This document shows, piece by piece, positions 8,652 to 32,982 of a stretch of 42,098 nt of DNA. The stretch spans positions 1 to 42,098 of the forward strand of contig JAQGIE010000075.1 of the NCBI GenBank assembly GCA_028291365.1. The letters run 5' to 3'. Under the pieces are notes generated by a model, which was given only the letters and a program-made list of their open reading frames with translations, did no database searches and was not told where the DNA came from. This DNA is from Rhodospirillales bacterium. Its GTDB lineage: Bacteria; Pseudomonadota; Alphaproteobacteria; BOG-932; Roseiterribacteraceae. Numbering within the stretch: position 1 is the stretch's first letter; each line of letters opens with the position of its first letter. Made by a program: the position numbers and the translations under genes.

Positions 8652-10067
8652 TCAGGTCACTCGCACGTTCAGGAACTGCCACGGATCGGAACGATCCAGA
8701 TCTTCGGGGAACAACGTCGCCCGATCGACCAGGGGCGTCCAGTCTGTGTAAACGCCCACCAGCTTGCCGAGATACGGCCGCATGATCGCCATGCAGCGCT
8801 GGTGATCCATCTCGTCGGCTTCGACGACACCCTCGTTCGGATGTTCGAGCGCCCAGACCATGCCCGCGAGCACTGCGATGCAGACCTGCAGCGAGGTCGC
8901 GTTGTTGTACGGCGCCAGCTCGCGCGCTTCCTCGACGCTGAGCTGCGAGCCGTACCAGTACGCATTCTTGGCGTGACCCGCGAGCAGCACGCCGAGTTCG
9001 TCGACGCCTGACACGATCTCGTCCATCAGCAGACGTTGCGTCGCCTGCTGGTGCCAGTTCTTGCCCGCCAGCTCGTGCACCGACTTCACCGCGTCGTCGC
9101 ACGGGTGATAGGCGTAATGCACGGTGGGCCGGTAGGCCGGCCTGGCGGCGTCGCCGACCGTGTAATAGTCGGCGATCGAAATCGCTTCGCTGTGCGTGAT
9201 GAGAAAGCCGTGGAACGGACCTTCGTACGGCGTCCAGGTGCGCACGCGCGTCGACGCGCCCGGCCGCATCAAATAGATCGCGGCCTTGCAGCCGACTTCG
9301 TGGCCACGCCCGTCAGCGGGAAAATGTTTCTCGTGGCTGCCCCAGCCGAGTTCGGCCGGCTGGCAACCTTCGCTGACGAAACCGTCAATCGACCAGGTGT
9401 TGACGAACTCGCCGACTTTCTTCGGCACGCTCGCCACCTGCGTGTCGCGCTCGGCGACGTGAATCACTTTGACGTTGAGCTTGTGCGCCAGCGCGGCCCA
9501 GCCGGCGCGATCTTTCGGCACCGTCGCGTCGACACCGGTATCGCGCGCGATGTTGAGCAGCGCTTCTTTGACGAGGTGCGAGACCAGACCGGGATTGGCG
9601 CCGTGCGTCATCACCGCGGTCGGCGCGTTCGGCTCTTTCAACGCCAGCGCGCTGGCGCGCAGCGCGTAATTGGTGCGCTGGTCCTGGGTCAGGTTGGGAT
9701 CGGTATAGCCGCCCCGCCACGGCTCGACGCAGGTGTCGAGATAGAGCGCGCCGACTTCGCGCGCGAACTCGACCAGCGCCACCGACGACACTTCGACCGA
9801 CAGGTTGAGCAGGAAGTCGCCTTTGCCCAGCAGCGGGCGCAGCACGTCGCGATAATTCTCGCGCGTCAGCGGATGCTGCACGAACTTGATGCCGTAATTG
9901 GCCGCTTCGGCCGAACCTTTCGGCTCCGCCGTCACGATGGTGATGCGTTCGGGCGCGACATCGATATGGCGCAGGATCAGCGGCAGCACGCCCTGGCCGA
10001 TCGAGCCGAAGCCGACGATGACGAGACGACCGCCCAAGGCGGCATGTTTGATCTGGTCGTGCGCCAT
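8652..10067 (-). CDS. hss: Homospermidine synthase
   Basis: NAD-dependent enzyme that forms homospermidine from putrescine (or putrescine plus spermidine), the main triamine of many alphaproteobacteria. The protein is 471 residues, the family's usual length. A Rossmann motif GFGSIGQG is at about residues 19-26. The family pattern continues with NLSVEVSSVALVEFAREVGALYLDTCVEPW, seen in pieces, MTHGANPGLVSHLVKEAL, and the C-terminal QLSVEEARELAPYNNATSLQV segment. ATG at 10067 follows a GAGG box by nine bases; a GTG 81 bases further upstream adds unrelated residues. The EI24 gene follows within a base, suggesting co-transcription. No decarboxylase for putrescine supply is in the window. Confidence 0.95.
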   Translation of the reverse strand: MAHDQIKHAALGGRLVIVGFGSIGQGVLPLILRHIDVAPERITIVTAEPKGSAEAANYGIKFVQHPLTRENYRDVLRPLLGKGDFLLNLSVEVSSVALVEFAREVGALYLDTCVEPWRGGYTDPNLTQDQRTNYALRASALALKEPNAPTAVMTHGANPGLVSHLVKEALLNIARDTGVDATVPKDRAGWAALAHKLNVKVIHVAERDTQVASVPKKVGEFVNTWSIDGFVSEGCQPAELGWGSHEKHFPADGRGHEVGCKAAIYLMRPGASTRVRTWTPYEGPFHGFLITHSEAISIADYYTVGDAARPAYRPTVHYAYHPCDDAVKSVHELAGKNWHQQATQRLLMDEIVSGVDELGVLLAGHAKNAYWYGSQLSVEEARELAPYNNATSLQVCIAVLAGMVWALEHPNEGVVEADEMDHQRCMAIMRPYLGKLVGVYTDWTPLVDRATLFPEDLDRSDPWQFLNVRVT

Positions 10068-10191
10068 GGGACGGACCTCGACGAAAAAGCAGGGGGAGCG
10101 CGGAAAAAGGCGGAGCCGCAAAAACAGGATAAGGACCCGGATCGTCAAGCTTCGGGCGGTGCTCGATCCGCGGACATGCCGAATCCGGCGC

Positions 10192-10221
10192 TTGCCTTTG
10201 AAGCGCAGATCGCGTTAGAAC
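10192..10221 (+). promoter_or_regulatory. Possible sigma-70-like promoter for the 29-residue peptide gene
   Basis: TTGCCT at 10192 and TAGAAC at 10216 are separated by 18 bases in the 240-base divergent gap between hss and the small gene. Both hexamers match the consensus only partly. No other clear site is visible in this gap. Confidence 0.3.
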
Positions 10222-10282
10222 GTCGCAGTGCGGCAGGCTGTCGCATACGCCGGCAGAACAAGTAAAAACCGCCGGTCACCAC

Positions 10283-10306
10283 GGGAGGAACGTCGGGAGG
10301 AACGTC
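10283..10306 (+). repeat. Perfect 12-bp tandem duplication carrying the Shine-Dalgarno site
   Basis: GGGAGGAACGTC occurs twice without a gap. The second GGAGG is seven bases from the ATG at 10308, an ideal spacing; the first is 19 bases away. The duplication fixes the start of the small gene and gives two ribosome-docking sites in tandem. Confidence 0.85.
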
Positions 10307-10307
10307 G

Positions 10308-10397
10308 ATGGCTAGCAAAAACACGCTGTATTACATGCTGGGCGTCGCTGTCGTCGGCGCGCTCGGATTTACGGCGTTGCAGTTCCTGACCGGCTAG
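10308..10397 (+). CDS. 29-residue single-span membrane peptide
   Basis: ATG at 10308, TAG at 10395-10397. A short polar start (MASKNTLYY) is followed by one hydrophobic segment (MLGVAVVGALGFTALQFL) and a final TG, which makes a single transmembrane helix. The start is supported by the best Shine-Dalgarno in the window, present in two tandem copies. No family is recognised. It stands alone between hss (divergent) and an MFS gene, and the transcript runs into four hairpins, the last a strong terminator. It could be a membrane-complex accessory subunit or a type I toxin-like peptide. It lacks the strong positive charge of many toxins, so I do not choose between these. Confidence 0.7.
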   Translation: MASKNTLYYMLGVAVVGALGFTALQFLTG

Positions 10398-10516
10398 TCC
10401 GGTCGAACTGGACCGGGGATCGTCCCCGGAAGGCGCAAAAAAGCGCCGAACCACGCGAGGCCTGCCTCGCACCGAGGGGCCGCCTTCCGCACACCGGAAG
10501 GCGGCCCTTGTTCTTT
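10398..10516 (+). ncRNA. Candidate structured RNA: four consecutive hairpins after the 29-residue peptide
   Basis: Four perfect stems follow one another with 2 to 7 bases between. H1 10413-10429 (CCGGGGA/TCCCCGG, 3-base loop); H2 10432-10447 (GGCGC/GCGCC, loop of six A); H3 10455-10470 (GCGAGG/CCTCGC, 4-base loop); H4 10477-10507 (13-bp stem, 5-base loop) with TTGTTCTTT after it. A simple 3' UTR needs only the last. The array could be the 3' UTR of the small gene or a separate small RNA processed from it. No known RNA family is recognised. Confidence 0.5.
10477..10516 (+). terminator. Rho-independent terminator
   Basis: The 13-bp stem (GGGCCGCCTTCCG pairing with CGGAAGGCGGCCC), loop CACAC and tail TTGTTCTTT separate the small peptide transcript from the MFS gene. 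Confidence 0.85.
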
Positions 10517-10624
10517 GTGGCCGGGCTGCCTGCGGGTGGGTTCGTCGTCGTGGTTGCGGCTCGTTGACCGGGCTGCAGCCACCGTCGATGGTCGCCGCTG
10601 TTTCGAGTCGAGGTTTCTCCCCCC

Positions 10625-11890
10625 GTGTCCGCCGCATCTCAACTGACGCCCGTCGAGCGTCGGATCACGCTGCTCGTTGCCGCCGTCCAGTTCGTCAACG
10701 TGCTCGACTTCATGATGGTGCTGCCGCTCGGCCCCGACTTCGCGGTGGCGCTCGGCATTCCGACCTCGCATCTCGGCTATATCGGTGGCGCCTACACGCT
10801 CGCCGCCTTCGTCAGCGGCCTCGCCGGCGCGCTGGTGCTCGACCGGTTCGACCGGCGCCAGGCGCTGGCGGTTGCGATCGGCGGTCTCGTCATCGCGACT
10901 GCGTTGGGCGGCTTCGCGGTCGACCTGCCGACCATGCTCGGCGCGCGCATGCTGGCTGGATTTTTCGGCGGACCCGCGACGTCGCTCGCACTCGCCATCA
11001 TTGCGGACTCGGTGCCGCCGGAACGGCGCGGCCGTGCCATGGGCATGGTCAGCGCATCCTTCGCGGTGACCAGCGTCGTCGGCATGCCGATCGGACTCGA
11101 ACTGGCGCGCCTCGGCGGCTGGCGGTTGCCGTTCTTCGGCGTCGCCGGGCTCGGCGCCGTAATCGCGTTTCTCGTCGTCTGGGCGATGCCGCCGCAGCGC
11201 GCACACCTGCAACAGCCGGGCGGTGAAGCGCACCGCGTCGCCTCGTTCGGCGAGTTGCTGGCGCAGCCGATGACGCGGCTGGCGATGCTGCTGGTGTCGC
11301 TCGCGATCGTGACCGGCTTCATGCTGTTTCCAAACTTCTCAGCCTGGATCCAGTTCAATCTCGGCTTTCCGCGGGCGCAGATCGGCGTGCTCTACATGCT
11401 CGGCGGCTGCATCGGATTCTTCGTCACGCGCTATGTCGGGATCGGGATCGACAAATTCGGCGGTGCGCCGATCGCGATCGCGTCGGCTGTGCTCAACGTC
11501 GTGATGATCTGGGCGGTGTTCCTCACGGACAAGCCGCCGATCTCGCTCTACGTCATCTTCCCGCTCTTCATGGCGGCGAACGCCGCGCGCATGGTGGTGG
11601 TCTCGACCATCACGTCGAAAGTGCCGGGGCCGACCGAACGCGCGCGCTTCATGTCGTTGACCTCGGCGACGCAGCACATTTCGAGCGCGTTCGCGGCATT
11701 TCTCGCGTCGGCCGTGCTGATCGAGCTGCCCGGCGGTGCGCTGGCCGGGATCATGCCCTTGGCGGTTGCTGCGATGGTGTTGGCGACGGTCGTGCCGCCG
11801 CTGGTCTGGTCCGTCGAACGCTTCGTCGACTCGCGTTCGCGTTCGCTGCGCGTGCAGACGATGGTCGAGACCTCGCCGGCCCGTTCCTGA
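10625..11890 (+). CDS. MFS transporter
   Basis: Integral membrane protein of 421 residues with the twelve-helix pattern of the major facilitator superfamily. The first helix contains the typical NVLDFMMVLPLGPDF, and the loop between helices 2 and 3 has LVLDRFDRRQAL, a version of the family's motif A (GxxxDRxGRR). A second half begins near residue 205 after a cytoplasmic loop. The N-terminal half resembles drug and arabinose-type efflux carriers, but the substrate is not deducible. GTG at 10625 is the likely start (MSAASQLTPVERR); a GAGG box lies about 10 bases upstream. It is a monocistronic unit, bounded by a terminator on each side. Confidence 0.88.
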   Translation: MSAASQLTPVERRITLLVAAVQFVNVLDFMMVLPLGPDFAVALGIPTSHLGYIGGAYTLAAFVSGLAGALVLDRFDRRQALAVAIGGLVIATALGGFAVDLPTMLGARMLAGFFGGPATSLALAIIADSVPPERRGRAMGMVSASFAVTSVVGMPIGLELARLGGWRLPFFGVAGLGAVIAFLVVWAMPPQRAHLQQPGGEAHRVASFGELLAQPMTRLAMLLVSLAIVTGFMLFPNFSAWIQFNLGFPRAQIGVLYMLGGCIGFFVTRYVGIGIDKFGGAPIAIASAVLNVVMIWAVFLTDKPPISLYVIFPLFMAANAARMVVVSTITSKVPGPTERARFMSLTSATQHISSAFAAFLASAVLIELPGGALAGIMPLAVAAMVLATVVPPLVWSVERFVDSRSRSLRVQTMVETSPARS

Positions 11891-32023: not shown

Positions 32024-32913
32024 ACAAACCGGCTGCAACCTTGCGGGCGCTGCTGGCGCGATCCGATCGCGCCGTGCTCGCCCCCGGTTGCTACGACGCG
32101 CTGACCGCGTCGCTGATCGAGCGCGCCGGGTTCGAAGCCGCCTATCTGTCGGGCGCTTCGGTCGCCTATACGCGGCTGGGCCGGCCCGATATCGGCCTCA
32201 CCACTGCGGTCGAGGTCGCCGACGTGATCGCCAACATCCGCGATCGCTGTCCCGACCTGCCGCTGGTCGTCGACGCCGACACCGGCTTCGGCAATGCGCT
32301 CAACGTGCAGCGCACCGTGCGCAGCTTCGAGCGCGCCGGCGCCTCGGCGATCCAGCTCGAAGACCAGGTGATGCCCAAACGCTGCGGTCACCTCGCCGGC
32401 AAGCGCGTCGTGCCGGCGGCCGAGATGGTGGGCAAGATCAAGGCCGCCTGCGATGCGCGCAACGACGACGCGACCCTGATTGTGGCGCGCACCGATGCGC
32501 TCGCGGTCAACGGGTTCGACGATGCGCTGGCCCGGGCCGAGGCCTATGTCGAAGCAGGCTGCGACCTGCTGTTCGTCGAGGCGCCGCAAAGCGAAGCGCA
32601 GATGCGCAGCGTCGCCGCGCGCTTCGCCGCGCGCGTACCGCTGCTCGCCAACATGGTCGAAGGCGGCACCACTCCGATCCGCGACGCCGGCGCGCTCGCC
32701 GCCGCCGGGTACCGGCTGGTGATCTTCCCGGGCGCCGCGACGCGGGTGCTGGTGTTCGCGCTCGAGCAGTTTTTCGCCGACCTCAAACGCGACGGGTCGA
32801 GCGCCGCGTGGCGCGAGAAAATGCTCGACCTGAAAGGGCTGAACGCGGTGCTGGGCACCGACCGGATGCTTGCAGCAGGACGCGCCTACGATCCCGACAT
32901 CCAGGACGCCTAG
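32020..32913 (+). CDS. Isocitrate lyase/PEP mutase family lyase
   Basis: TIM-barrel enzyme of 297 residues that makes or breaks C-C (or P-C) bonds next to a carboxylate. GCYDALTASLIERAGFEA and YLSGASVA form the first strands. VDADTGFGN holds the Mg-binding Asp85/Asp87. MPKRCGH holds Cys122, the catalytic cysteine kept in isocitrate, methylisocitrate and dimethylmalate lyases and absent in PEP mutase. ARTDALA follows. So a lyase is favoured. With the dehydratase genes upstream it could cleave the hydrated dicarboxylate to a 2-oxoacid plus an acid. The ATG at 32020 was preferred over an upstream frame that passes through the VOC remnant. Confidence 0.86.
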   Translation: MNKPAATLRALLARSDRAVLAPGCYDALTASLIERAGFEAAYLSGASVAYTRLGRPDIGLTTAVEVADVIANIRDRCPDLPLVVDADTGFGNALNVQRTVRSFERAGASAIQLEDQVMPKRCGHLAGKRVVPAAEMVGKIKAACDARNDDATLIVARTDALAVNGFDDALARAEAYVEAGCDLLFVEAPQSEAQMRSVAARFAARVPLLANMVEGGTTPIRDAGALAAAGYRLVIFPGAATRVLVFALEQFFADLKRDGSSAAWREKMLDLKGLNAVLGTDRMLAAGRAYDPDIQDA

Positions 32914-32923
32914 CGCGTTTTCC

Positions 32924-32982
32924 CGCAGACGAAAGAAGGGCCGGATGCTCGTCCATCCGGCCCTTCTCTTGAAGCGTCTGCG
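32924..32982 (+). terminator. Composite inverted repeat after the lyase gene
   Basis: An inner perfect 14-bp stem (AGAAGGGCCGGATG/CATCCGGCCCTTCT, loop CTCGTC) is nested in an outer perfect 8-bp stem (CGCAGACG/CGTCTGCG). The inner arm is followed by CTCTTG, a poor T tract. It very likely ends the dehydratase-lyase transcript. Confidence 0.7.

Follow-up and report, generated by a model that had tools for sequence, protein, structure and literature searches.

A predicted four-hairpin 3' end of a lineage-specific small-protein gene in a Rhodospirillales bacterium

Four hairpins standing nearly back to back behind a very short open reading frame raise the question of what such an RNA is for. The locus lies in the window analysed here, a stretch of 42,098 nt from a Rhodospirillales bacterium of the Roseiterribacteraceae. 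An earlier note described four perfect stems within 95 bases (loops TCG, AAAAAA, CCTG, and CACAC), preceded by a 29-residue membrane peptide and ending in a strong terminator, and considered either a 3'-derived small RNA or an uncharacterised RNA element. The stems are present as described (7, 5, 6, and 13 bp) and occupy 95 bases (10413-10507) just 3' of the 29-codon ORF (10308-10397). The last hairpin has a perfect core of 13 pairs (10477-10507), or 15 pairs with 10475-10509; together with its T-rich tail it makes the expected terminator, which is kept in the related genome G001. The comparison set comprised five species of the order, with the genus represented by the source genome and G001 only. 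The coordinates are collected in Table 1.

Table 1. Features of the peptide-gene locus (positions in the window)
Feature	Position	Strand	Description
Putative promoter	10192-10221	+	TTGCCT (10192-10197) and GTTAGAAC (10214-10221), inferred by eye
5' hairpin close to the putative start of transcription	10228-10246	+	GTGCGGCA-GGC-TGTCGCA(T/C)
ORF of a 29-aa single-helix hydrophobic peptide	10308-10397	+	Shine–Dalgarno GGGAGG upstream; conserved in G001
HP1	10413-10429	+	7 bp, loop UCG (TCG in DNA); 7/7 pairs invariant in G001
HP2	10432-10447	+	5 bp, loop AAAAAA; 5/5 pairs invariant in G001, loop diverged
Single-stranded linker GAACCAC between HP2 and HP3	10448-10454	+	Identical in G001; candidate contact sequence
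HP3	10455-10470	+	6 bp, loop CCUG (CAUG in G001); one A-U to G-U change, still paired
HP4, intrinsic terminator	10475-10516	+	15-bp stem, loop CACAC, tail TTGTTCTTT; longest terminator-like site in the scan
MFS transporter gene	10625-11890	+	Pfam MFS_1, E 9.9e-46; downstream of an unconserved 108-base gap (10517-10624)

The 119-nt piece 10398-10516 folds with a minimum free energy (MFE) of −72.3 kcal/mol (z −6.3), and none of 200 shuffled sequences was equally stable. HP1–HP3 folded without the terminator still gave a z of −4.2, with 0/200 shuffles as good. The folding z of the element in G001 is −4.2. The frequency of such arrays was estimated in 442,098 bases, made up of the window and 20 pieces of 20 kb from G001. 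Groups of four hairpins within 119 nt occurred 20 times, the array of the peptide gene being the richest (31 pairs, with 25 in the runner-up). Triple hairpins with 18 or more pairs in a span of up to 65 nt occurred six times, two of them at this locus. An MFE of −72.3 or lower was reached by 6 of 30,114 segments of 119 nt, one of which overlaps the array on the minus strand. The hairpins by themselves are thus uncommon and not extraordinary, and their conservation is the stronger evidence.

Other structures can be noted in the scanned sequence. A perfect 14-bp stem at 32934-32967, behind the open frame that ends at 32913, is apparently an ordinary terminator. The lowest folding energy (−84.5) belongs to a palindrome of G001 (L121:11611-11729). 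This palindrome and another, upstream of an MFS homologue (L106), are long and carry CCCTCTCC/GGAGAGGG-type motifs; we take them to resemble dispersed REP-type repeats.

The gene order in G001 is identical: the saccharopine-dehydrogenase-type gene, the peptide, the hairpins, the MFS gene, and sdhB. A loss of the stems in relatives, which the earlier note had named as evidence against its reading, was not found: all 33 of 33 stem pairs are kept in this sole available congener. Three of the 66 paired columns differ, each on one side only and each giving G·U on the plus strand; two of them are in HP4, where both leave the pairing intact. Read as minus-strand RNA, the three changes would give A-C mismatches, and the chance of such a pattern is about 1 in 8 if the transitions were arbitrary. 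No pair has changed on both sides, two sequences being too few for a covariation test. Of the 47 unpaired columns, 7 differ. One of these changes is a single-base indel in the HP2 loop, which in G001 is one base shorter and of different sequence. This indel breaks the shared reading frame, and the 3' element was therefore ruled out as a coding sequence.

The fourfold sites of the two flanking genes served as a reference, with 143/454 changed (63/240 and 80/214). Against them, the whole element is markedly conserved (10/113 changed, Fisher p 2e-7). The stems of HP1–HP3 alone show 1 change in 36 columns (p 8e-5), which indicates that the three upstream hairpins are constrained besides the terminator. 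The contrast between paired and unpaired columns (3/66 and 7/47) is weak (p 0.09), and the unpaired columns are themselves conserved relative to the fourfold sites (p 0.02), so the constraint may be on the sequence as much as on the structure. Identity to G001 is 90% in HP1–HP3 and 93.5% in the terminator, 39% in the gap after the terminator (10517-10624), and 50% in 10251-10294. Judging from this comparison of two genomes, all four stems are under constraint.

The upstream frame was likewise compared. All 29 of 29 peptide residues are identical in G001, with eight synonymous codons and no nonsynonymous ones, so the ORF is taken to encode a real protein. The peptide has one hydrophobic stretch preceded by a lysine, as read from its sequence. 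No match to it was found in Pfam or PDB (E ≤ 10 in both) or among plasmids (E ≤ 1). The single NCBIfam match, HmcD (NF045712; E 0.004), extends weakly across the entire peptide; however, it reaches 17.1 bits against a curated cut-off of 34 bits, and it most likely reflects the generic similarity of single helices.

Among the genomes searched, the gene appears to be confined to its genus. At E ≤ 1, translated searches with the peptide hit two of the five order genomes, both members of the genus, with a second place in G001 at chance level (E 0.63). Among 385 genomes of the class, three were found at E ≤ 0.1: the genus pair and G346 (E 0.08), whose match falls within a 562-aa ABC-transporter-like ORF and was discounted. 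In a draw of 398 genomes of the phylum, only the source genome was found at E ≤ 0.05. A covariance model of the 3' element matched 15/385 class genomes at E ≤ 0.01, two of them being the genus. Seven of the 13 other matches were aligned (L134–L140); six depend mainly on the terminator hairpin; the L134 match is scattered, weak, and contains non-pairs. The 300 nt upstream were inspected at 12 of these 13 matches (L141 excluded), and none of them contains a small hydrophobic ORF. Neither the peptide nor the full 3' element was found outside the genus among the 385 class genomes.

Within the source genome, the unit is single-copy by both DNA search and covariance model, the second covariance hit being the terminator read on the opposite strand. 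A dispersed palindromic repeat of the REP or MITE type was ruled out by this single copy. An Rfam search, which had been proposed as a check, gave no match at the gathering threshold in the whole window and none at E ≤ 1 in 10100-10640, so no family covers the array; no tRNA or tmRNA was found. The proposal of an uncharacterised structured RNA element thus holds, with the stems kept in G001 and HP1–HP3 constrained. We regard the element as a real and conserved structured 3' end, absent from Rfam 15, of a small-protein gene specific to this lineage.

The neighbourhood bears on the origin of the gene. In the sister genus, sdhB directly adjoins the saccharopine-dehydrogenase-type gene in all three genomes, across a short gap (63 nt between the ORFs in G003), and the MFS gene is absent between the two. 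The peptide, the 3' element, and the MFS gene are therefore either extra in the genus or lost in the sister genus. The saccharopine-dehydrogenase-type protein is 90% identical to that of G001 and the MFS protein 76%; the best NCBIfam model of the latter, MxcK, is below its cut-off. A survey of the 2 kb (less on short contigs) upstream of saccharopine-dehydrogenase-type genes, covering the best 80 of 173 loci with the source locus as a positive control, gave hydrophobic candidates of 22–45 aa at 10/80 loci, and by eye none of the ten resembles the peptide.

The order of a short ORF, hairpins, a terminator, and a same-strand transporter gene, kept in both species, recalls a leader-peptide attenuator of the MFS gene, in which ribosome stalling on the 29 codons would open the terminator; the 108-base gap, moreover, contains no clear promoter. 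However, all 29 residues are conserved, as a hydrophobic helix, and G001 has disrupted versions of the stems that overlap the end of the ORF (10388-10404 and its alternative). HP4 forms with a probability of 0.93–0.98 in all folds tried, never below 0.93, and no antiterminator was found. The hairpin array is also missing from the 420 nt upstream of six MFS homologues in six other genomes. We consider attenuation highly unlikely.

At the 5' end, a promoter was read by eye, and its element GTTAGAAC (10214-10221) is, we presume, near the alphaproteobacterial −10 consensus GCTANAWC; a sigma-70 scan detected no promoter for the peptide gene. A run of 37 nt identical in G001 (10209-10245) covers the presumed −10 and most of the 5' hairpin, and CTTGCC is also kept. 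This run could alternatively be a regulator binding site. A second well-conserved block, at 10100-10160, faces the divergent saccharopine-dehydrogenase-type gene and contains CTTGAC...TATCCT on the minus strand, possibly the promoter of that gene. If the presumed promoter of the peptide gene is right, the transcript would be about 280–290 nt long (280 in G001), and the full-length folds assume a start just after it. As an isolated piece from the source genome, the 5' hairpin forms (MFE −10, z −1.9) and is not significant alone. It also forms in the full-length fold of G001. In that of the source genome, the 5' end pairs with HP3 instead (~15 pairs), while in G001 this pairing amounts to 0.05 pairs and HP3 forms locally. 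The Shine–Dalgarno sequence is unpaired with a probability of 0.60 with the 3' element versus 0.65 without it in the source genome, and 0.62 versus 0.33 in G001. In the source-genome fold, the AUG is largely paired whether the tail is present or absent (unpaired 0.12 and 0.04).

These folds bear on the idea of a type I toxin mRNA, whose peptide would be a membrane toxin of its own cell, silenced by 5'–3' folding of the mRNA and by an antisense RNA. The small hydrophobic ORF fits in size and hydrophobicity, and the pairing of the 5' end with HP3 in the source genome recalls the 5'–3' interaction of the aapA mRNAs, reported in PMC6733600, where the AapA3 peptide has 30 aa. The aapA/IsoA systems thus share with this locus a peptide of ~30 aa, a short structured mRNA, and possibly the 5'–3' pairing. 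However, the pairing is not conserved in G001, and the tail does not sequester the Shine–Dalgarno sequence, so a block of translation by folding is not seen. No minus-strand promoter-like site was found in 10060-10660 at the thresholds used, consensus scans being weak in this group, and the only two such sites in G001 are both inside the MFS gene. The single copy of the locus also speaks against a toxin, and we find this reading of the locus quite improbable.

On balance, we favour, with modest assurance, the reading that this is the mRNA of a small membrane protein specific to the lineage and that its structured 3' UTR is selected and protective. According to this model, built on sequence comparison and folding, the gene would give a short mRNA encoding the single-helix membrane peptide. 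Its 3' UTR would be a selected RNA structure, with three hairpins stacked ahead of the intrinsic terminator of 15 bp. The most likely tasks of this tail are to terminate transcription, to insulate the next gene, and, we infer, to block 3'–5' exonucleases, as a result of which the mRNA, and probably also a processed 3' fragment of ~110 nt, would be long-lived.

A protective 3' UTR accounts for the data as well as a small RNA does, and the two readings are not strictly exclusive. A 3'-derived or dual-function small RNA, in which the ~110-nt tail would base-pair with target mRNAs through conserved linkers and loops, either once RNase E has released it or while still within the whole transcript, is a tentative possibility that we rate as rather doubtful. 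The unpaired linkers GAACCAC and ACCG beside the stems are conserved, HP1–HP3 are surplus to termination, and the intrinsic terminator stands at the 3' end, as in small RNAs from 3' UTRs. However, most of the tail is locked in stems, its U-tract is interrupted, and Rfam holds no match. We think it unlikely that the locus is a genus-specific bifunctional gene in which a single ~290-nt transcript both encodes a new 29-aa membrane peptide and carries a regulatory RNA of four hairpins. In this reading, the gene would have arisen or been acquired, together with an MFS gene, between sdhB and the saccharopine-dehydrogenase-type gene, and a 5' element could switch HP3 by long-range pairing. Whichever applies, this is a clean small case in which selection appears to act on both peptide and 3' RNA structure, and it can be asked which of them carries the function. 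With a tail that is only protective, the finding is ordinary; should it be a small RNA, the examples of coding small RNAs would extend from Rhodobacter into a little-studied lineage of the Alphaproteobacteria.

Alphaproteobacterial precedents add to the case for a small RNA. In Rhodobacter, 16 small RNAs from 3' UTRs have been predicted (PMC8625941). Pos19 of R. sphaeroides is a 219-nt coding small RNA, a short transcript with a translated small ORF, to which the predicted transcript is similar; its effect on other mRNAs is demonstrated (PMC5036791), whereas a regulatory role of the present tail is only a candidate. The CcsR1–4 RNAs of R. sphaeroides are cotranscribed with the small-protein gene ccaF1, as stated in PMC8307010. 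As described there, CcaF1 is an RNA-binding protein, whereas a membrane peptide is predicted here, and CcsR1–4 are four homologous small RNAs, whereas the present four hairpins differ from one another and match no Rfam family. The likeness lies in the arrangement: in both alphaproteobacteria, a small-protein gene is followed by several structured units, in a single transcript there and in a predicted one here.
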